This document shows, one piece after another, positions 30,894 to 41,101 of a stretch of DNA of 64,000 bases (positions are counted from its first letter, which is position 1; the number at the start of each line of letters is the position of its first letter). The stretch spans positions 1 through 64,000 of the forward strand of contig NZ_JAJAFU010000004.1 in assembly GCF_020480685.1 (NCBI RefSeq). The letters run 5' to 3'. The position numbers and the translations under genes are program-made. This DNA comes from Deferrivibrio essentukiensis (GTDB taxonomy: Bacteria; Chrysiogenota; Deferribacteres; Deferribacterales; Deferrivibrionaceae). Under the pieces are notes generated by a model. That model ran no database searches. It was not told the origin of the DNA and worked only from the letters and a program-made list of their open reading frames with translations.

Positions 30894-31543
30894 TTAAGAT
30901 AAAAGGGTTATGCAAAGTATTTGATGGCAAACCTATTTTGAGTAACATAAATATCGATATTTCAAAAGGGGATATATTAATAATAAAGGGGCCAAGCGGC
31001 AGTGGCAAAAGCACGTTGTTATCACTTATATCAGGCCTTGCAAGGCCTACTTCCGGAGCCGTTTATTACAATGATATGAATATTTCAAAGCTTCCCGAAA
31101 TTGAGCTTGGAAGATACAGAAATGAAAAGATAGGGTTTATTTTTCAAAAGTTTAATCTGCTTGAGAATCTGACTGTTTATGAAAATATTTTACCACCTCT
31201 TGTAGTGAGAAAAGAGAAAATTGATAGAAAAAAAATAGAAGATGTGCTTAAGAAATTAGAGCTACTGGAATTTATAAATACGAAAGTATCAAAGCTATCA
31301 GGCGGTGAGCAACAAAGGGTCGCACTTGCAAGAGCCCTTGTAAATAAACCTGACATATTACTGGCGGATGAGCCTACGGCAAATTTGGACTATAATCTTA
31401 AGATGAATGCGATTAAGATCTTTCTTCAGGAAAACAAGGAGGGGAAAACTATAATTATTGCAACCCATGATGATATTTTCTTAAGTATCCCAAATGCAAA
31501 AGTCGCAAAACTTGATAACGGCATACTGTCGGTACTAAAATGA
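30890..31543 (+). CDS. ABC transporter ATP-binding protein, LolD/MacB type
   Basis: ATPase partner of the preceding permease. The 217-residue protein has Walker A GPSGSGKSTLLSL, Q-loop FIFQKFNLL, signature LSGGEQQRVALARAL, Walker B ILLADEP and H-loop ATHD. It overlaps both neighbours by 4 nt. Confidence 0.92.
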   Translation: MIKIKGLCKVFDGKPILSNINIDISKGDILIIKGPSGSGKSTLLSLISGLARPTSGAVYYNDMNISKLPEIELGRYRNEKIGFIFQKFNLLENLTVYENILPPLVVRKEKIDRKKIEDVLKKLELLEFINTKVSKLSGGEQQRVALARALVNKPDILLADEPTANLDYNLKMNAIKIFLQENKEGKTIIIATHDDIFLSIPNAKVAKLDNGILSVLK

Positions 31544-32514
31544 ATATTGTGGCTCCAGAGCAGATAATCATATACTTTATCGATTTAATATTTATATTTT
31601 TTTCCGTAATTTTCTTAAAAACTTCCATCACAATGATAAGAAGGTTTGACTTTAACAGTTCGACTACTTTTCAATACACACTGGAAAAGAAAAACACACT
31701 TATATCCGCAATCGTGTCATTTTTGATATTACTAAAATTACCATTAATTTTTTTCTTTCTGTATCTACTTGATTCACTGTCATCTTCAATCCCCGGAGCA
31801 ATGTGTGCTGTGGGGGTATTAAACTCGACACCTTACGGGGCTTACCTTATAATCTTAAAAGTCACAATATTATTCGTCCTCGGCTATTGGTTTTATATAA
31901 ATAAATTTGATTTGCAAACATATGGGTTTAAATATACCAAATTAAAATATAGGCTCCTAATATTTATAACTTTACTGATTATTTTGGAGTTTTTGCTGGA
32001 AATAAATCTTTTCAACAATATTTCTCCGGAAAAGATTGTTAGCTGCTGCGGCTCAGTCTTTGGCGGAGAGCTAAGACAATTTTCTACTTTCTTAATAAAC
32101 ATAGAAAATTCTTTATCCGTGCTTGCAATTATAGTTGTCTTTGTTGTTATGACACTTGCATTTATGTTTAAAAAATATCGCTTATATGGTTTCACTGTTT
32201 TTTTCTTTCTTTTAACGGCAATTTACTCATTAATAGATTTTTTCAGCACATATATATATGAATTGCCTACACATAGATGTCCATTTTGTATCCTACAAAG
32301 AGATTACAACCATATTGGTTATGTTCTATATTTTTTGCTGTTTTTTGGCACATTTTACGGCTCAAACCTCTTAGTCCTATCAAATATCACAAGTGAGAAA
32401 ACAAAAAGAGTTTGGATAAATATATCTTATGCAATGTGTCTAATTTACATACTCATCGTATCTTTCTATGTGTTGAAATACTATATAGGCAACGGCGTAT
32501 GGTTAACAGATTAA
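31540..32514 (+). CDS. Polytopic membrane protein with paired cysteines
   Basis: Not a family I can name. The 324-residue protein has about 8-9 membrane segments. Cysteines are few and placed in motifs: GAMCAVG (Cys89), VSCCGS (Cys169-170) and HRCPFCILQRDY (Cys247, Cys250). These would lie near the outer face or loops and could bind copper or exchange disulfides, somewhat like DsbB/VKOR-type proteins, although no quinone-site signature is clear. It overlaps the ATPase gene by 4 nt and the next gene by 16 nt. Confidence 0.75.
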   Translation: MNIVAPEQIIIYFIDLIFIFFSVIFLKTSITMIRRFDFNSSTTFQYTLEKKNTLISAIVSFLILLKLPLIFFFLYLLDSLSSSIPGAMCAVGVLNSTPYGAYLIILKVTILFVLGYWFYINKFDLQTYGFKYTKLKYRLLIFITLLIILEFLLEINLFNNISPEKIVSCCGSVFGGELRQFSTFLINIENSLSVLAIIVVFVVMTLAFMFKKYRLYGFTVFFFLLTAIYSLIDFFSTYIYELPTHRCPFCILQRDYNHIGYVLYFLLFFGTFYGSNLLVLSNITSEKTKRVWINISYAMCLIYILIVSFYVLKYYIGNGVWLTD

Positions 32515-33020: not shown

Positions 33021-33040
33021 TTACCAGAGAGGTAAACAAT
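33016..33040 (+). promoter_or_regulatory. Perfect 25-bp operator palindrome at the Rrf2 start
   Basis: ATTGTTTACC, a 5-nt centre and GGTAAACAAT are exact inverted repeats of 10 bp. The site covers the -10 box, the likely ribosome site (GAGAGG) and the first two bases of the ATG. It is the obvious autoregulatory operator for the Rrf2 protein encoded next. Confidence 0.75.
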
Positions 33041-33458
33041 GTCACTCATAAAACGTGAAGCTGACTATGCCATAAGGATTGCAGCTTTTTTAGCCGGTCA
33101 AAAAGGACTGGTCAAAATTGACTATATTTGTGAAAAACTTTTTTTGAATAAACCTATTGTTATAAAAATAATACATAAACTCTCAAAGTGTGGTATAATA
33201 GTTTCTGAGACGGGTAGACATGGTGGGGTAGCCTTATCCCCTGATGCGGTTGATTTAAGTTTATTGGATATTTTAAAGTGTATGGAATTTGTCAATTCGA
33301 TTAATATTTGTGTAGACCAACCTGAAAAGTGCTTACTTAACCCTATATGCAATATTACTGTTTTTTTTAAGCAACTTCAGGACGATGTGGAGAAAAAATT
33401 ACACTCTGCCAAGCTAAAAGATTTTGTTTTTACTGAAGATAGATTAAATATCTTGTAG
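33039..33458 (+). CDS. Rrf2-family transcriptional regulator, probable Fe-S sensor
   Basis: The 139-residue protein has the winged-helix start MSLIKREADYAIRIAAFLA, GRHGGV as the wing, and three cysteines Cys91, Cys98 and Cys104 in the position where IscR, NsrR and relatives bind an Fe-S cluster. Spacing is C-x6-C-x5-C. It is 11 nt upstream of ccoN, so it probably represses or tunes cbb3 oxidase genes in response to oxygen, nitric oxide or iron. Which signal cannot be told. Confidence 0.88.
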   Translation: MSLIKREADYAIRIAAFLAGQKGLVKIDYICEKLFLNKPIVIKIIHKLSKCGIIVSETGRHGGVALSPDAVDLSLLDILKCMEFVNSINICVDQPEKCLLNPICNITVFFKQLQDDVEKKLHSAKLKDFVFTEDRLNIL

Positions 33459-33469
33459 GAGGTATAGTT

Positions 33470-34888
33470 ATGAATGACTACCGTTATGACTATGAAACGG
33501 TAAAAGGTTTTATTTTATCTGCAATTTTTTGGGGTGTAGTTGGCCTTGTGGTTGGACTATGGATTTCGGCTCAGATGTGGGATGCAAGTCTTAATATTCC
33601 ACCGTATTTTAGTTTTGGTAGGCTTAGGACATTCCACACAAATGTATTAACATACGGGCTTGGGATTGGAGCTGAATTTGGTGTATTTTATTACTTAGTA
33701 ATAAGGCTTGCAAAGCGTCCGCTGCTCTTTCCAAAGCTTGCTAGATTCCATTTATGGCTTTTTAATGTCGGTGTTGCCATAGCCGGGATTACGCTTCTTT
33801 TAGGCTGGAATCAGTCACTGGAATATGCAGAATTTGAGTGGCCTATAGACATCGCAATTGTTATTTTATGGGTGATATTTGCTGTCAATATTTTAGGCAC
33901 TATTATCAAAAGAAAAGAAGAGCAGATGTATATCTCATTATGGTATATAATTGCTACTATTATTACAGTTGCAATTTTATATATCGTTAATAACCTATCT
34001 ATTCCTGCTGGATTTGACAAATCATACCACATATTTGCCGGGGTCAATAGTGCAAATGTTCAGTGGTGGTATGGTCACAACGCTGTAGGTTTTCTTTTCA
34101 CGACACCTATTCTTGCTATGTTTTATTATTTTTTACCAAAGTCAACAGGGCTTCCTATTTACAGTCACAGATTATCTATCATATCATTTTGGTCTTTAAT
34201 CTTTGCCTATCTTTGGACTGGTGCTCATCACCTTGTTTACACACCTCTTCCTGATTGGATTCAAACTCTTGGCATAGCTTTCACACTCTTTTTAATAGCA
34301 CCATCCTGGGGTAGCGTTGTAAACGGATATTTTACTGTTGAGTCTGATTGGTCAGTGATGAAAAATAATTATTTAACCAAATTTTTCATTGCTGGGATAA
34401 CATTTTACGGACTTCAGACCATACAGGGTCCATCTCAAGGTATAAGAGTAATAAGCTCTCTTATTCACTATACTGACTGGGTACCAGGGCATGTCCATAT
34501 GGGTACAATGGGTTGGGTAACAATGACAATTTGTGCCGCAGTGTATTATATAATCCCACACATATATAAAACTGAAATTTACAGTGTAAAAATTGCAAAT
34601 GCACACTTCTGGCTTGTGTTAATAGGTCAACTTGCATTTTCAATCACAATGTGGGTTACAGGTGTTCAACAGGGTGCAATGTGGAAAATGACAAACCCTG
34701 ACGGAACACTAAAATATACTTTTATGGAAGGACTACTCAGAAATTACCCTTACTGGCAGCTTAGAACCCTTGCGGGAATAGTATTTGTAATCGGAATGTT
34801 GCTCTTTATTTATAATGTAATGATGACAATCAAAAAAGGGAAAGCAGAGCTTGAAGCAAAATTACAAGCTGCTTCTGCCACAGCTTAA
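33470..34888 (+). CDS. ccoN: Cytochrome cbb3 oxidase catalytic subunit I
   Basis: High-affinity oxygen reductase core with heme b, heme b3 and CuB. The 472-residue protein has 12 membrane segments; ligands are seen as LRTFHTN (low-spin heme), WWYGHNAVGF (CuB), TGAHHL (CuB pair) and DWVPGHVHMG (heme b3 and b). The Tyr of FAYLWTGAHH is in place for the His-Tyr cross-link of this family. Strong AGGAGG ribosome site. It allows growth at low oxygen. Confidence 0.95.
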   Translation: MNDYRYDYETVKGFILSAIFWGVVGLVVGLWISAQMWDASLNIPPYFSFGRLRTFHTNVLTYGLGIGAEFGVFYYLVIRLAKRPLLFPKLARFHLWLFNVGVAIAGITLLLGWNQSLEYAEFEWPIDIAIVILWVIFAVNILGTIIKRKEEQMYISLWYIIATIITVAILYIVNNLSIPAGFDKSYHIFAGVNSANVQWWYGHNAVGFLFTTPILAMFYYFLPKSTGLPIYSHRLSIISFWSLIFAYLWTGAHHLVYTPLPDWIQTLGIAFTLFLIAPSWGSVVNGYFTVESDWSVMKNNYLTKFFIAGITFYGLQTIQGPSQGIRVISSLIHYTDWVPGHVHMGTMGWVTMTICAAVYYIIPHIYKTEIYSVKIANAHFWLVLIGQLAFSITMWVTGVQQGAMWKMTNPDGTLKYTFMEGLLRNYPYWQLRTLAGIVFVIGMLLFIYNVMMTIKKGKAELEAKLQAASATA

Positions 34889-34899
34889 AGGGGGGGAAT

Positions 34900-35784
34900 A
34901 TGTCAGAAAATAAAAAACTCTATTCAAATGCTCTTATATTTTCTCTTGCAGCGGCAATAACCGTTTTGATCGGTACTATTGCTACAGTGTTTATCCCTAT
35001 GTTTACAAAAGGGATGCACCCTAAACTTGAAAATTTAAAACCGTATACTGCCATCCAACTTGCTGGAAGGGACATCTATCAGCGTGAAGGGTGTGTAAAC
35101 TGCCATACTCAGACTGTGAGACCTTTAAAATCTGATGTTTTGATGTATGGAGATTATTCAAAAGCGGGTGAATTTGCTTATGATCAACCATTCTTGTGGG
35201 GCTCCAAAAGAACAGGTCCAGATTTGGCAAGAATCGGTGGCAAATATCCGGATGATTGGCATTATCAGCATATGACAAACCCACAAGCGTTTTATGAAAA
35301 ATCAAATATGCCAAAATATGCCTTTTTAAACGACAGAAAGGTTGCTGTTGAAAAAACAATTGCTCATATGAAAGCATTAGGTTTTCCCTATACTGAAGAT
35401 GATGTCAATACACTTAAAAACAGTACTGAAATGGACGCAATAGTTGCTTACTTACAAGTACTTGGAACAGCTGTAGAAAGAAAAGCTGTCCTCACTATCG
35501 ATGAGACAATGGTAGAAGAGACAAGCCCATTAGCCGGCAATAAAGACGCTATTTTAAAGGGGGAAAAACTCTACAAAGCTGAATGTGCCGGATGCCATGG
35601 ACAAAATGCTGAAGGAAATATTGGTGGCTCGCTTGTAGATTACGCATCTGCTGAAAGTCCTGACAGAGACACTTACTTGATAATTGCAAACGGCTTTGAA
35701 GGTGCAATGCCGGGATTTGCTGCAATATATGACAAAGAAGAGATTTGGTCATTGGTAGAGTACATTAAAAGTTTAAAAAAATAG
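34900..35784 (+). CDS. ccoO: CcoO fused to a CcoP-type cytochrome c domain
   Basis: The 294-residue protein has a membrane anchor (about 9-32), a CcoO domain with CVNCH at Cys65-His69, FLWGSKRTGPDLARIGGKY and SNMPKYAFL with the Met ligand, then a linker (about 165-215) and a second heme domain with CAGCH at Cys229 and AMPGFA as Met ligand. Standard CcoO has one heme and about 200 residues; CcoP has two hemes. Here one CcoP-like domain is fused to CcoO. Electron entry from a soluble cytochrome c is likely through the C-terminal domain. Confidence 0.88.
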   Translation: MSENKKLYSNALIFSLAAAITVLIGTIATVFIPMFTKGMHPKLENLKPYTAIQLAGRDIYQREGCVNCHTQTVRPLKSDVLMYGDYSKAGEFAYDQPFLWGSKRTGPDLARIGGKYPDDWHYQHMTNPQAFYEKSNMPKYAFLNDRKVAVEKTIAHMKALGFPYTEDDVNTLKNSTEMDAIVAYLQVLGTAVERKAVLTIDETMVEETSPLAGNKDAILKGEKLYKAECAGCHGQNAEGNIGGSLVDYASAESPDRDTYLIIANGFEGAMPGFAAIYDKEEIWSLVEYIKSLKK

Positions 35785-35793
35785 GGGGCTTAA

Positions 35794-35982
35794 ATGTACA
35801 AAGAAGAATTTGATGATCTTGAAAAATTTGAAAGGGAAGATACAAAGCATAAATTACCTTTAGGGTGGCTTATACTTTATATAGGGCTTATAGTGTTTGG
35901 TATCTTTTACACATATATGTACACGCCTGCATTTACCGGGTGGACACAAAACAAGGCTATTGAGGAAACTTTAAATAAGTAA
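35794..35982 (+). CDS. Stand-alone CcoP N-terminal membrane anchor
   Basis: 62-residue protein with acidic start FDDLEKFERED, basic PLGWLILY, one membrane helix (about 25-45) and TGWTQNKAIEE. This is the pattern of the N-terminal segment of CcoP (DGIEE...PLPRWW...helix...W). It has no heme motif. The gene has an AGGGGG ribosome site and lies 9 nt after ccoO. It likely keeps the structural contact CcoP makes with CcoN while the heme domain sits on CcoO. Confidence 0.7.
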   Translation: MYKEEFDDLEKFEREDTKHKLPLGWLILYIGLIVFGIFYTYMYTPAFTGWTQNKAIEETLNK

Positions 35983-36036: not shown

Positions 36037-36183
36037 ATGCCGGGTGACCTGTTAGCATATCTAATCTTTGGAATAGGACTTGTAGTCCTATTTATTTGTA
36101 TAGTAATTTACTACTATTCAAAAAAAAGACACGACAAAATAGAAGAAGCAAAATATAAGATGCTTGAAGATGATGACGAATAA
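36037..36183 (+). CDS. Small cbb3 subunit, CcoQ-like with a CcoS-type tail
   Basis: 48-residue protein starting at an ATG with AAAGGAG 6 nt upstream. One membrane helix (about residues 5-26), basic YYSKKRHDK as in CcoQ, and a tail AKYKMLEDDDE that matches the CcoS tail of the gene at 37899. Position after the CcoN/O/P genes favours CcoQ, which stabilises the complex; the tail suggests common origin with CcoS. It overlaps ccoG by 14 nt. Confidence 0.72.
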   Translation: MPGDLLAYLIFGIGLVVLFICIVIYYYSKKRHDKIEEAKYKMLEDDDE

Positions 36184-37390
36184 TTTTCAATTTTACAGAC
36201 GGATAGTTAGAGCGATATTGGTAATTTTGGGGGTAACATTACCTTTTATTAAAATAAACGGTAATCACCTTCTGATTTTCAATATCTACACATTTGAGTT
36301 TCATTTATTTGGGCTTTCACTGCAGATAAATCAGTTTTTACCCCTTCTGGCACTATTTCTATTTTTTACCTTTCTATTTTTATACATTACCGTAACTTTT
36401 GGAAGAATATGGTGCGGTTGGCTTTGCCCTCAGTCCGTTTCTATGGAGCTGACCTCGTTTATACAAAGTTTTAACAAAGGTAACTTACCGGTAAAAACTT
36501 TCAAAATTATACTCTTATACGCTTTATCTGTAATGATAGCAGCAAATATCTTACTCTACTTTATCCCGTATGAAATATTTTTTGACCGTTTATTCGGCAA
36601 TGAGTTTAGTAAAGGGATTTTTACTGCACTTATAACGCTGGGCACACTTCTTTTTTTAAACTTCTGGCTTGTAAGATATAAATTTTGCGCAACGGTTTGT
36701 CCGTATTCAATGCTCCAATCAATATTGTTTGATAAACATACTTTGGCAGTCTGGATGATCCCTGAAAGAAGGGATGAGTGTATTAACTGCCTCAGCTGTG
36801 TCAAGGTATGCTCCACAAAAATAGATATCAGGCAGGGGCAAAATTCTGCATGTATAAACTGTGCAAAATGTATAGATGCTTGTGCCAACGTAATGGGGAA
36901 ATTAGGGAAAAAATCTCTCTTTGCCTACAGATTTGGCGAAGAAAACAAAAAAAGATTTACAAGATTCTCATCAACCGTTTCACTTTTTCTCACGGTAATC
37001 TCTTTTATAATATTCATTTTAATCGCAGTTTCCACAAAGAAAGTGCAGGTAGAAGTTATACCCTATCAAAAGTTTTTACCTAGATATATTCATGATTTTG
37101 CTGCTAACGGATATGTCCTTGTGATTGAAAACGGGGACAACAAAGATAAAACTATTGCTATTGAAATAGAAGATTTAAGCGGATACGAAATAACGCCGAA
37201 TAGCATCTTTAAAGTCAAGCCAAAGTCGAAAGAGGACTTTACCTTTTTCGTCAAATTAAAGAGGGATTTACTTGAAAACACCCCTATTCTTAATCTAAAA
37301 TTAAAAATAGTTAACAAAGAAGATAAAACATCGGAGATAAAAAATATAAGTTTTAGGAGACCCATCACATCAAGGAGAAGCAAAAAATGA
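36170..37390 (+). CDS. ccoG: Cytochrome oxidase accessory protein CcoG
   Basis: Membrane cupric reductase/ferredoxin helping copper insertion into cbb3 oxidase. The 406-residue protein has 4-5 membrane segments, WCGWLCPQ, a first Cys in FCATVCPY, two [4Fe-4S] motifs (CINCLSCVKVC and CINCAKCIDAC) and a C-terminal periplasmic beta domain. ATG at 36170 or 36173 or TTG at 36164 are all possible; I take 36170. The start lies inside the acidic tail codons of the preceding gene. Confidence 0.9.
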   Translation: MMTNNFQFYRRIVRAILVILGVTLPFIKINGNHLLIFNIYTFEFHLFGLSLQINQFLPLLALFLFFTFLFLYITVTFGRIWCGWLCPQSVSMELTSFIQSFNKGNLPVKTFKIILLYALSVMIAANILLYFIPYEIFFDRLFGNEFSKGIFTALITLGTLLFLNFWLVRYKFCATVCPYSMLQSILFDKHTLAVWMIPERRDECINCLSCVKVCSTKIDIRQGQNSACINCAKCIDACANVMGKLGKKSLFAYRFGEENKKRFTRFSSTVSLFLTVISFIIFILIAVSTKKVQVEVIPYQKFLPRYIHDFAANGYVLVIENGDNKDKTIAIEIEDLSGYEITPNSIFKVKPKSKEDFTFFVKLKRDLLENTPILNLKLKIVNKEDKTSEIKNISFRRPITSRRSKK

Positions 37391-37809
37391 AAATGATGAT
37401 AGCTTTACTAATTGCCGGATTTCTACTGCTTGGGTCTTCATTTTATTTTGGAAACAGATATTTTGATGGAAAAGTTGTGGATAAACCGTATGTTGAGGCA
37501 TCTCTATACGACCAAAAGAAAAAAATTGTAAATGATTGCTCATTAAGTTTGGAAATTTTAAATATAGAAAAGGTTGAAGATAAATACAAAATCTGTTTTA
37601 CAATAAACGGTGAAATAAAAAGACCTTTTCCCATTGAAAGGGTTGAAATATTCAGACCCGCTGGCGGCGAAATAATCAGACCTGAAGTTAATATTAAAAA
37701 CAGAGCCTGCACTGTAAATGTCCCTCTGAATAAAGGATATTATATCTTAAAGGTACTTTTGAAAATGCAGCAAGTCGTCGAGCTGGAAAAGACACTTTAT
37801 ATAAAGTAG
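37387..37809 (+). CDS. ccoH: FixH/CcoH family protein
   Basis: The 140-residue protein has one N-terminal membrane helix (about 4-21) and a periplasmic beta domain with VDKPYVEASLYDQ typical of FixH. It helps maturation or stability of the cbb3 complex. Overlaps the ccoG stop by 4 nt. Confidence 0.82.
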   Translation: MKMMIALLIAGFLLLGSSFYFGNRYFDGKVVDKPYVEASLYDQKKKIVNDCSLSLEILNIEKVEDKYKICFTINGEIKRPFPIERVEIFRPAGGEIIRPEVNIKNRACTVNVPLNKGYYILKVLLKMQQVVELEKTLYIK

Positions 37810-37818
37810 GAGGTTTTT

Positions 37819-37902
37819 ATGAAAAAAGGTACAATAATTATGATTTTATCGCTTATAGCGATGCTCCTTATCCCACTTTTACTTGCAATGTATATAAAAT
37901 GA
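37819..37902 (+). CDS. 27-residue single-helix membrane miniprotein in the cco operon
   Basis: ATG at 37819 with a strong TAGGAGG ribosome site 6-7 nt upstream, stop at 37900, and overlap of 4 nt with ccoS (ATGA). The peptide is KKG followed by one hydrophobic helix (IIMILSLIAMLLIPLLLAMYI) and a final Lys. It is coupled on both sides. Small subunits such as CcoM/CcoH-type helices are known in some cbb3 oxidases; this one is not recognised. Confidence 0.6.
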   Translation: MKKGTIIMILSLIAMLLIPLLLAMYIK

Positions 37903-38042
37903 GTTCGTTATTCTTTTTAGTGCCAATAAGCCTTATTTTAGGAATTATTGCTCTGCTACTATTTTTCTGGGCAGTTAAAGGTAAGCAATTTGATGATGTT
38001 GAGGGACCAAAATACAGAATGCTAGATGACGACGACGAATAA
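37899..38042 (+). CDS. ccoS: Cytochrome oxidase maturation protein CcoS
   Basis: 47-residue protein with one membrane helix (about 4-25), GKQFDDVEGPKYRMLDDDDE as the family's conserved tail. CcoS is needed for heme b and CuB insertion into CcoN. The last 17 nt overlap the start of ccoI. Confidence 0.88.
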   Translation: MSSLFFLVPISLILGIIALLLFFWAVKGKQFDDVEGPKYRMLDDDDE

Positions 38043-40467
38043 TACCACTCAATGCAGCCACTGCTTATTAAAGTTTAATAAAAATACTGCAATTGTTGAA
38101 AAAGAAGGGGACAAAGAGCTTCATTTCTGTTGCCCCGGATGCCAAAGTGTTTACCATATTATCAAAGACGGAGGGTTTGATAGCTTTTATAAAAAAAGGC
38201 GTGATTACAAGCCAGGCCCGCCTGAGCTTGCTTTTATAAGTGATGAGCTATTTGTAGATGATATAATTGAGCACGAAAATTACTCCGAAATAGAATTTAT
38301 TGCTACAAATATCAGATGCGCTGCATGTATCTGGCTTATAGAGAACTACCTTTCCAAACTAAATGGGATTAAATATGTGAGGGCTAATTACGCCACCCAT
38401 AAAGTAAAAATTCAGTGGGATAACTCAACAATACCCCTTAATGAAATATTAAACGGTATTGCAAATCTTGGTTACACACCTGTGCCTTTATCCGCAATGT
38501 CATCATCCGATTATTTTCAAAAGTTGAAAAAATCTTACTTCTATAAATTCAGTATAGGTGCATTTTTTACGATGCAAATTATGATTTATTCTGTCGCTCT
38601 TTATGCAGGATATTTTCAAGGTATAGATGAAAATTTAAAAGAGATGTTTAAGTTGATTGCTATGATTCTTGCCACCCCTGTAGTTTTTTACTCAGGTCTC
38701 CCCTTTGCAATTAATTCCATAAAATCTCTGAAAACAAAAACTCTAAATATGGATACGCTCGTATTTTTGGGATCTTATTCCGCTTACTTTTACAGTGTTT
38801 TTGGAGTCTTTACCGGGGGAGAAATATACTTTGATACATCCTCAATGATAATAACACTAATCTTGCTCGGCAGATATATCGAAACTGAAGCAAAGATAAA
38901 GGCATCCAAAGAGATTACTTTACTGTTTAATCTTCAGCCCAAACAAGCTAAGCTGTTAAAGTCTTTCACCAAAAATGATTATATACAAGGGAAATTAAAG
39001 CCTCTGATTGTAAAAGTGGCATCAATAAGAAAAGGGGATATTTTGGAAGTATTGCCAGGGGAGAATATCCCCGTTGACGGCAAAGTTATCTATGGTAAAA
39101 GTGAAGTAAATGAATCAATGTTTACCGGAGAAAGTGTTCCTGTTTTAAAGAAACAGGGTTGTACTGTAATTAGCGGTACAAACAATTTAAACGGGACACT
39201 TGTAATTGAAGCGACAAAAAGTAGTAAAGAATCTTCATTAAATAAAATAGCTGAAGCTATAAAATCTGCTCAGGAAAGTAAGTTTTACTTTCAAAAACTT
39301 GCCGATAAAATAACCATTTACTTTGTTCCTACGATAATAGCAATTGCCTTTGCTACGTTTTTATACTGGTTTAACCACAGTAACAGTTTTGTCACATCTT
39401 TTATGAATGCAGTGTCCGTATTGGTTATTGCCTGCCCTTGCGCAATGGGGCTTGCCACACCACTTGCAATTTTAGTTGCTACATCAACGGCATTTAAAAA
39501 AGGTATTCTTATCAAAGAAGGCTTTATATTGGAAAATGCATCAAAGGTAAAAGCTGTCTTTTTCGATAAAACAGGCACTATTACAGAAGGGGTGCCAAAG
39601 ATTGTAGGTATAAAGTCTTATGATAATAATTTTAATACACTAAAAATTGCCGCATCCTTAGAAAGATTTTCAAAGCATATCCTCGCCATAAGTATAGTCT
39701 CACAATATACTGAAGGGTTTGAAGAGGTGACTGATATAAAGGAGATACCGGGGCAAGGGATGGTAGGAAATACAAATAACAACATTCAAATTGCTGCAGG
39801 AAATATGCTTTTATTTAACAGATTAGGGATAGACATTGATACAATCGTCAAAAACGACTTGGAGTCTCTTGCTTCACAAGGGTACACAAATATAATGGTT
39901 GCTTACAATAAAAAAATTATCGGCGTCATTTCATTGTTTGACAATGTTAGAGAGTCTTTTGGGGAAATTTACAATTTTCTAACCAAAAAACATATTGAGA
40001 TTAATGTATTAACAGGGGATACCAAAGAAACAGCTGAAAAAGTTCTGAAAGATTATACTGATATTAACATATTTAGCTCTTTAAGCCCCATAGAAAAGGT
40101 TGAGGTAATAAAAAATAACTTGCATAAATTCCCCATAATGGTTGGGGATGGGATAAACGATGCACCTTCACTCAAACAAGCATTTATAGGGATAGGTATG
40201 GGCAAAGGGACAGAGATTGCCCTTGAAAGCTCCGATGCTGTCTTTGTTAACAGCAATCTTCTGCTACTCAAAGATTTTCTTAATCTTTCAAAAAAAACAA
40301 GAGGTATTATTATTGAAAATCTATTTTGGGCTTTTTCATATAATTTTGTAACTATCCCTCTGGCAATATCCGGAAAAATTCATCCGGTTTTCTCAGCAGT
40401 CTTAATGAGCATTAGTTCACTTATTGTTGTTTTTAACTCACTTCGAATCAAAACCTTATCCCGCTGA
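38026..40467 (+). CDS. ccoI: Copper-transporting P1B ATPase for cbb3 oxidase
   Basis: Exports Cu(I) to the periplasm for oxidase assembly. The 813-residue protein has an N-terminal zinc-ribbon-like CSHCLLKF...CCPGCQ, an HMA-like domain with RCAACIW near residue 99, 8 membrane helices, the transport motif CPC (ACPCAMGLATP, about 469), TGES, phosphorylation site DKTGT (Asp about 513) and GDGINDAPSL. ATG at 38026 lies in ccoS. The 3' end overlaps the opposing TauE-like gene by 20 nt. Confidence 0.94.
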   Translation: MTTTNNTTQCSHCLLKFNKNTAIVEKEGDKELHFCCPGCQSVYHIIKDGGFDSFYKKRRDYKPGPPELAFISDELFVDDIIEHENYSEIEFIATNIRCAACIWLIENYLSKLNGIKYVRANYATHKVKIQWDNSTIPLNEILNGIANLGYTPVPLSAMSSSDYFQKLKKSYFYKFSIGAFFTMQIMIYSVALYAGYFQGIDENLKEMFKLIAMILATPVVFYSGLPFAINSIKSLKTKTLNMDTLVFLGSYSAYFYSVFGVFTGGEIYFDTSSMIITLILLGRYIETEAKIKASKEITLLFNLQPKQAKLLKSFTKNDYIQGKLKPLIVKVASIRKGDILEVLPGENIPVDGKVIYGKSEVNESMFTGESVPVLKKQGCTVISGTNNLNGTLVIEATKSSKESSLNKIAEAIKSAQESKFYFQKLADKITIYFVPTIIAIAFATFLYWFNHSNSFVTSFMNAVSVLVIACPCAMGLATPLAILVATSTAFKKGILIKEGFILENASKVKAVFFDKTGTITEGVPKIVGIKSYDNNFNTLKIAASLERFSKHILAISIVSQYTEGFEEVTDIKEIPGQGMVGNTNNNIQIAAGNMLLFNRLGIDIDTIVKNDLESLASQGYTNIMVAYNKKIIGVISLFDNVRESFGEIYNFLTKKHIEINVLTGDTKETAEKVLKDYTDINIFSSLSPIEKVEVIKNNLHKFPIMVGDGINDAPSLKQAFIGIGMGKGTEIALESSDAVFVNSNLLLLKDFLNLSKKTRGIIIENLFWAFSYNFVTIPLAISGKIHPVFSAVLMSISSLIVVFNSLRIKTLSR

Positions 40468-41101
40468 TAATAAAAAATATTCCAAGTATTATCATTATTA
40501 AAAAACTTATAATTCTAAATAGCATTCTATGTTTTAAAACTATACTTCCAAATACCGAAACCAAAAGTAGTGAGGCAGATGTCCCTACCCCGAAAAGTAC
40601 CATAGAAATCATAGATTTTAATGGATTATTCAATGATGTAACCCCTATTAATGCTCCATATAACAAACCGCAAGGGAGAAAACCTAAAACTAGTCCGGCA
40701 AGGAAAGGTGAATTAAACCTAAACAATGAAATAATTTTGCTTATTTTTTTTGTGATAATATTATTTTCCAACTTAGAAATGATTTTTAGCCCCAAAATAT
40801 CAAAAGTAGCATACGCTATGAGAAATACCCCTGCAAAAATGGCGAGTATTTTTTGAAAATATACAATATTCCCAAAAAGCTCCCCCGCACTGCTTGCACT
40901 TCCAAAAACTAAACCTAAACTACCATAAGTTATAATTCTTCCAAGATTGTACTTTATTTGGGGAAGAAAAAATCTTACATACCCGGGAGAATTTGGCGCA
41001 AACTTACTCGCTACATATATTACAAAAGGGTTACACATAAATATACAATGCCCAAACCCTCCAAAAAAACCTAAAGAGAAAAAACCCAATAACTCAACCA
41101 T
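40448..41101 (-). CDS. TauE/SafE- or DsbD-like membrane protein
   Basis: The 217-residue protein has 6 membrane segments and an N-terminal FGHCIFMCNPF motif (GHCxxMC-like), with LPCGLLYGALI later, typical of the sulfite exporter TauE/SafE-named family related to DsbD/CcdA. Members near cco genes are thought to help cbb3 maturation. It converges on ccoI with a 20-nt overlap, so antisense transcription is possible. Confidence 0.8.
   Translation of the reverse strand: MVELLGFFSLGFFGGFGHCIFMCNPFVIYVASKFAPNSPGYVRFFLPQIKYNLGRIITYGSLGLVFGSASSAGELFGNIVYFQKILAIFAGVFLIAYATFDILGLKIISKLENNIITKKISKIISLFRFNSPFLAGLVLGFLPCGLLYGALIGVTSLNNPLKSMISMVLFGVGTSASLLLVSVFGSIVLKHRMLFRIISFLIMIILGIFFIISGIRF

Follow-up and report, generated by a model that had tools for sequence, protein, structure and literature searches.

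The cbb3-type oxidase operon of the window (the whole stretch of 64,000 nucleotides analysed here, contig C4 of the source genome) encodes a CcoO with two heme c domains, followed by a CcoP of which only the N-terminal membrane anchor is left. This layout, written as 2+0 (heme count on CcoO + heme count on CcoP), is a real, conserved and clade-wide variant of a known enzyme and is not unique to the source genome. On the evidence of the genes, it is likely that the operon specifies a working cbb3 oxidase with a two-heme CcoO and a helix-only CcoP, in which the extra CcoO domain was gained first, the CcoP heme was lost afterward and the helix was kept as a structural element. The source genome comprises 2.36 Mb in 64 contigs and is rated 100% complete. 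The genes are arranged in the order ccoN, ccoO, a 62-aa ORF, a FixQ-like 48-aa ORF, ccoG, a FixH-position protein, ccoS and a copper P-type ATPase, and the features of the region are as follows:

33039..33458, + strand: Rrf2-family regulator, directly 5' of ccoN (PF02082, 76.6 bits)
33470..34888, + strand: ccoN, catalytic subunit of the cbb3-type oxidase (PF00115, 345 bits)
34900..35784, + strand: ccoO with two heme c domains (FixO at residues 6-174 and Cytochrome_CBB3 at 217-289)
35542..35781, + strand: second, fused cytochrome c domain at the CcoO C-terminus, residues ~215-294, with CxxCH at 229-233 and Met270 (profile, alignment, AlphaFold2, dN/dS)
35794..35982, + strand: ccoP cut down to the N-terminal membrane anchor, 62 aa, without a heme motif (PF14715, hhalign, purifying selection)
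36037..36183, + strand: ccoQ/fixQ-like 48-aa membrane protein, just 3' of the anchor gene (PF05545, 33.7 bits against a cut-off of 29)
36164..37390, + strand: ccoG/rdxA-like accessory protein (TIGR02745, 225 bits, below the cut-off of 317)
37387..37809, + strand: FixH-position 140-aa membrane-anchored protein, ccoH-like by its position between ccoG and ccoS
37899..38042, + strand: ccoS maturation protein (PF03597, 75 bits; TIGR00847, 64 bits)
38026..40467, + strand: ccoI-like copper P-type ATPase of 813 aa, overlapping ccoS (ORF motifs DKTGT and CPCAMGLATP)
40448..41101, - strand: DsbD_2/SafE-like membrane protein, convergent with ccoI (PF13386, 121 bits)

The best equivalog match of CcoN was TIGR00780, at 513 bits and thus below the cut-off of 583, and a profile search of the whole genome returned ccoN as the sole COX1-family gene. 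The 140-aa FixH-position protein matched no family above cut-off in Pfam or NCBIfam; the slot that it occupies from ccoG to ccoS is kept in relatives. From its position, the Rrf2-family protein is a possible regulator of the operon. Upstream of these genes, the window also holds a predicted 324-aa membrane protein (31540-32514) with CCGS and HRCPFC motifs, which adjoins an ABC transporter pair and has no Pfam or NCBIfam match.

Profile analysis of the 294-aa CcoO revealed a FixO domain (PF02433, 233 bits) followed by a class-I cytochrome c domain (PF13442, Cytochrome_CBB3, 60 bits), and the protein also scored above the cut-off of TIGR00781, the mono-heme FixO/CcoO subunit (208 bits). The heme ligands C65/C68/H69/M137 and C229/C232/H233/M270 were invariant among 57 aligned two-heme CcoOs, and the fused domain showed a dN/dS of ~0.05. 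The second CxxCH domain that the sequence-only reading had placed at the CcoO C-terminus is therefore borne out by the family match and by the invariant ligands. The AlphaFold2 model of CcoO alone (pLDDT 80.9, pTM 0.72) had pLDDT mostly >90 in the fused domain; it is of poor quality around the first heme and gives no firm placement of the second domain. In a Foldseek search with this model, CcoO chains ranked first, and the second domain drew only generic class-I cytochromes c; neither family scores nor group HMMs distinguished a cytochrome c family of origin for it. The CcoO-cytochrome fusion is already named in NCBIfam: against NF011054 (PRK14486), 'bifunctional subunit II/cytochrome c', the protein scored 441.2 bits for a cut-off of 447, with residues 5-293 aligned to model positions 3-291. 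Model and protein share the fusion and a length of 294, but the entry names the fusion alone, and the hemeless CcoP partner gene is absent from its description.

The 62-aa product scored just above the cut-off of PF14715, FixP_N (25.1 bits against 24.9). In hhalign profile comparisons, a set of 35 such anchors matched the start of canonical diheme CcoP with 96.6% probability (E 6.5e-10) over 59 columns, which take in the stretch behind the helix, and the start of the Nitrospirota mono-heme CcoP with 99.8% (E 2e-29) over 64 columns. In turn, an HMM of the anchors scored Nitrospirota mono-heme CcoP highest (54-71 bits), followed by Geobacterales (16-29) and canonical proteins (13-16). The product contains no CxxCH and no cysteine, and CxxCH was found in none of the aligned hemeless anchors; it thus lacks the CxxCH heme domain, at least one of which follows the helix in a full CcoP. 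Neither the anchor (16 bits) nor CcoO (43.5 bits) reached the cut-off of 180 for diheme CcoP (TIGR00782). These results uphold the earlier proposal that the gene after ccoO encodes only the N-terminal helix of CcoP without heme, and the likeness to CcoP anchors, whose failure would have counted against that proposal, is clear in both alignments. The motifs likewise agree with its count of two heme c sites for the operon where three are usual, both on CcoO and none on the anchor.

Since the gene is syntenic across two phyla and has a low dN/dS, the 62-aa ORF is not a chance reading frame. In two species pairs, dN/dS was ~0.035 (dN 0.017, dS 0.488) and ~0.055 (0.065 and 1.179), and P22, Y39, P45, W50 and Q52 were invariant across Deferribacterota and Nitrospirota, the helix being followed by a short conserved segment, GW[ST]Q.... 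By these sequence measures, the short protein is a CcoP-type anchor under purifying selection. The ORF is short and a functional heme domain is absent, as would be expected of a decaying remnant without function, but the low ratios, the conservation in both phyla and the invariant residues leave hardly any probability for such decay. The genes ccoO and the anchor ORF lie in one frame in the window, nine bases apart, so that readthrough of the TAG stop codon would yield a CcoO-anchor fusion. Over 65 distinct anchors, however, the frame offset takes its three possible values in 32, 18 and 15 cases, which indicates separate genes and contradicts readthrough; the anchor ORF also has its own start with a G-rich stretch upstream, and, judging from the known topology of CcoP, four residues could not link a periplasmic CcoO C-terminus to a cytoplasmic anchor N-terminus. 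A readthrough fusion is accordingly regarded as extremely improbable.

A profile search of the whole genome found a single FixP_N place, the anchor itself. The family searches for FixP_N and COX1 thus gave one place each; they showed no full-length CcoP at any other locus of the genome and turned up no separate diheme CcoP either. There are four other Cytochrome_CBB3-type places in the genome, on contigs C2, C19 and C25, and an unlinked cytochrome c might join the anchor or the oxidase and restore three c hemes; a separate periplasmic cytochrome could serve. None of these proteins carries a FixP_N helix, and the clusters of close relatives have no additional cytochrome gene, which makes a third heme from such a source quite improbable, and the two-heme enzyme remains the preferred reading.

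The distribution of the layout was followed in Deferribacterota, where FixO was found in 40 of the 51 genomes searched and the operon was readable in 38. The 2+0 layout accounted for 35 of these operons, two being 1+0 and one 2+1, and a hemeless anchor was thus present in 37 of the 38 genomes. Among 49 Nitrospirota operons, taken as best matches plus picks and therefore a non-random sample, 25 were 2+0, 10 were 2+1 and 10 were 1+1; the others comprised single cases of 1+2, 1+0 and 4+0 and an unresolved operon. The 34 Geobacterales operons read were almost all 2+1 (31), with two 2+0 and one 1+1. The combinations that occur are therefore 1+2, 1+1, 2+1, 2+0, 1+0 and 4+0. In genome G062, the 1+0 operon lies complete on a single contig. 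The 4+0 operon (L154 307-1716, genome G419, Nitrospirota) encodes a CcoO extended by three additional cytochrome c domains in tandem, each of which matches Cytochrome_CBB3, and four CxxCH in all, followed by a hemeless anchor. A further Nitrospirota genome, G054, was observed to hold two 2+0 cbb3 operons (L008 and L157) ~8 kb apart, the second of which is a close sister of the 1+0 operon of G062.

In the CcoN tree (79 rows), all 34 rows with a hemeless anchor fell together in one clade (SH-aLRT 98), which branches from among the mono-heme-CcoP oxidases; the canonical 1+2 oxidases of Pseudomonadota and the 1+1 oxidases of Bacteroidota fall outside it. This nesting speaks for one loss event of the CcoP heme domain, followed by at least two losses of the extra CcoO domain (L017 and L062) and a tandem expansion in L154; the tree comes from a quick search with SH-aLRT support alone, and the choice between loss and gain hinges on the position of its root.

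The earlier proposal had described a split CcoP, the heme domain having moved onto CcoO and the membrane anchor remaining as a separate protein. For such a transfer, the heme domain of a mono-heme CcoP would have moved to the CcoO C-terminus, replacing or founding the second domain, and the helix would have been left as its own gene. A common Pfam family covers both domains, there is weak mixing of CcoP and CcoO domains from some Nitrospirota in the heme-domain tree, and the tree test did not reject placing the 2+0 fused domains beside those of mono-heme CcoP (p 0.16; Nitrospirota only, 0.12). The best tree, however, separates the fused domains of the hemeless-anchor oxidases from CcoP domains as a clade of their own (100/98), and the nearest outgroups hold a two-heme CcoO alongside a heme-bearing CcoP. 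Origin of the fused domains from heme domain 1 or 2 of canonical CcoP was examined as a further candidate, and either grouping was rejected (p-AU 0.017 and 0.022). One origin of all fused CcoO domains was not rejected (p 0.22). Because the domain tree was built on 84 columns, the case against transfer is only moderate, and it rests mainly on the 2+1 relatives, in which both domains coexist. On balance a true split is unlikely, and gain of the CcoO domain followed by loss of the CcoP heme is preferred to it.

The enzyme would consist of CcoN, the two-heme CcoO, the CcoP membrane helix and CcoQ. Its ancestor would have gained the second cytochrome c domain on CcoO while CcoP kept one heme (2+1), after which the CcoP heme domain would have been lost once, leaving the helix and the short GW[ST]Q... 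segment. In studied cbb3 enzymes, electrons pass from CcoP heme cp2 to cp1, to the CcoO heme co, to heme b and to b3-CuB (PMC7876108). Here the simplest path would run from a donor to CcoO domain 2, to domain 1 (the FixO heme), to heme b and then to b3-CuB, since the only c hemes are both on CcoO. The helix would be kept because it packs against CcoN and CcoQ, serving assembly or stability and not electron transfer. The anchor survives even beside a one-heme CcoO, an indication that its function does not depend on heme, and it is probably these contacts with CcoN and CcoQ for which it is maintained. We infer the assembly of the complex, its content of two hemes, the electron path and the role of the helix from the genes.

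As to the donor, family searches found neither cytochrome b (PF00033) nor a Rieske protein in the source genome, which therefore has no recognisable bc1 complex; one genome of the same genus does have a cytochrome b match. More generally, it can tentatively be proposed, at somewhat less than even chances, that the CcoP helix is a subunit for structure or assembly, that the hemes attached to it are optional and portable, and that in 2+0 and 1+0 enzymes CcoO itself is the direct electron acceptor, possibly for a donor other than bc1. The source genome (G000) was also observed to encode, on contig C19 (11159-12433; locus L021 448-1725), a CydA-like protein of the bd superfamily with a C-terminal heme c domain. 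It has a 365-aa partner ORF, its relatives occur in 12 of the 51 Deferribacterota genomes, and it could feed the cbb3 oxidase.

Comparison with canonical ccoNOQP systems (P. stutzeri, 3MK7/5DJQ; R. capsulatus, 6XKW) showed a common CcoN core, CcoP-type helix, CcoQ and ccoG/S, and, in CcoO, a common mono-heme FixO domain that carries one N-terminal helix (48% identity, Foldseek E 6e-10). In contrast to these enzymes, CcoP here lacks a heme domain and CcoO has one extra, giving two heme c sites against three, and the gene order is N-O-P-Q where canonical operons have N-O-Q-P. The 2+1 oxidases of Geobacterales and Nitrospirota have the same CcoO architecture and a CcoP N-terminus homologous to the anchor, but their CcoP retains one heme domain and three heme c sites are kept. 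Other rearrangements of cbb3 subunits and heme domains are known. In Nitrospina gracilis, CcoN, CcoO and CcoP are fused into one 954-aa chain (PMC3578206), which retains all three heme domains, unlike the present case. Neisseria has a tri-heme CcoP (PMC2924362), so that there, too, the CcoP heme number varies by modular domain gain or loss, with a gain in Neisseria and complete loss of CcoP heme here.

A 2026 Deferribacter paper described the cbb3 oxidase as partially encoded: ccoN and a mono-haem CcoO were reported, but neither ccoP nor ccoQ (PMC13186404). A ccoP gene was nevertheless present in all Deferribacterota operons read, including records named Deferribacteraceae and Calditerrivibrio, and in nearly all of them it is short and hemeless and barely detected by standard family cut-offs. 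The layout would thus correct the 'partially encoded' annotation, on the evidence of the Deferribacterota operons read. The presence of ccoP in all operons read also makes it likely that these largely anaerobic lineages are truly capable of high-affinity oxygen respiration, and that it is not vestigial. The variant is more ordinary than at first reading, being widespread and having its fusion half already named; it is also more interesting, as one step in a series that separates CcoP anchoring from electron relay. The two roles of CcoP, anchoring or assembly and electron relay, are joined in every model cbb3 oxidase and separated here, and natural enzymes down to one heme c (1+0) let each be probed alone. 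No description of a hemeless CcoP was found in the open literature searched; some of the layouts may already be covered by Ducluzeau et al. 2008, which is said to be the main evolutionary paper on cbb3.

Two further observations were made in the operons surveyed. In genome G004, a ~16-base tandem repeat (GGCTCCACGGGGCA-like) separates a mono-heme ccoO from the anchor gene (L062 2790-3060). Genome G029 encodes a CcoN-like protein (L064 234-1568) that aligns with the window CcoN over 408 aa at 28% identity and lacks the GHN, HH and GHVH metal-ligand motifs at the aligned positions. Its neighbour is a 160-aa FixO-like protein with one CxxCH, and by its sequence the pair looks like a catalytically dead oxidase.
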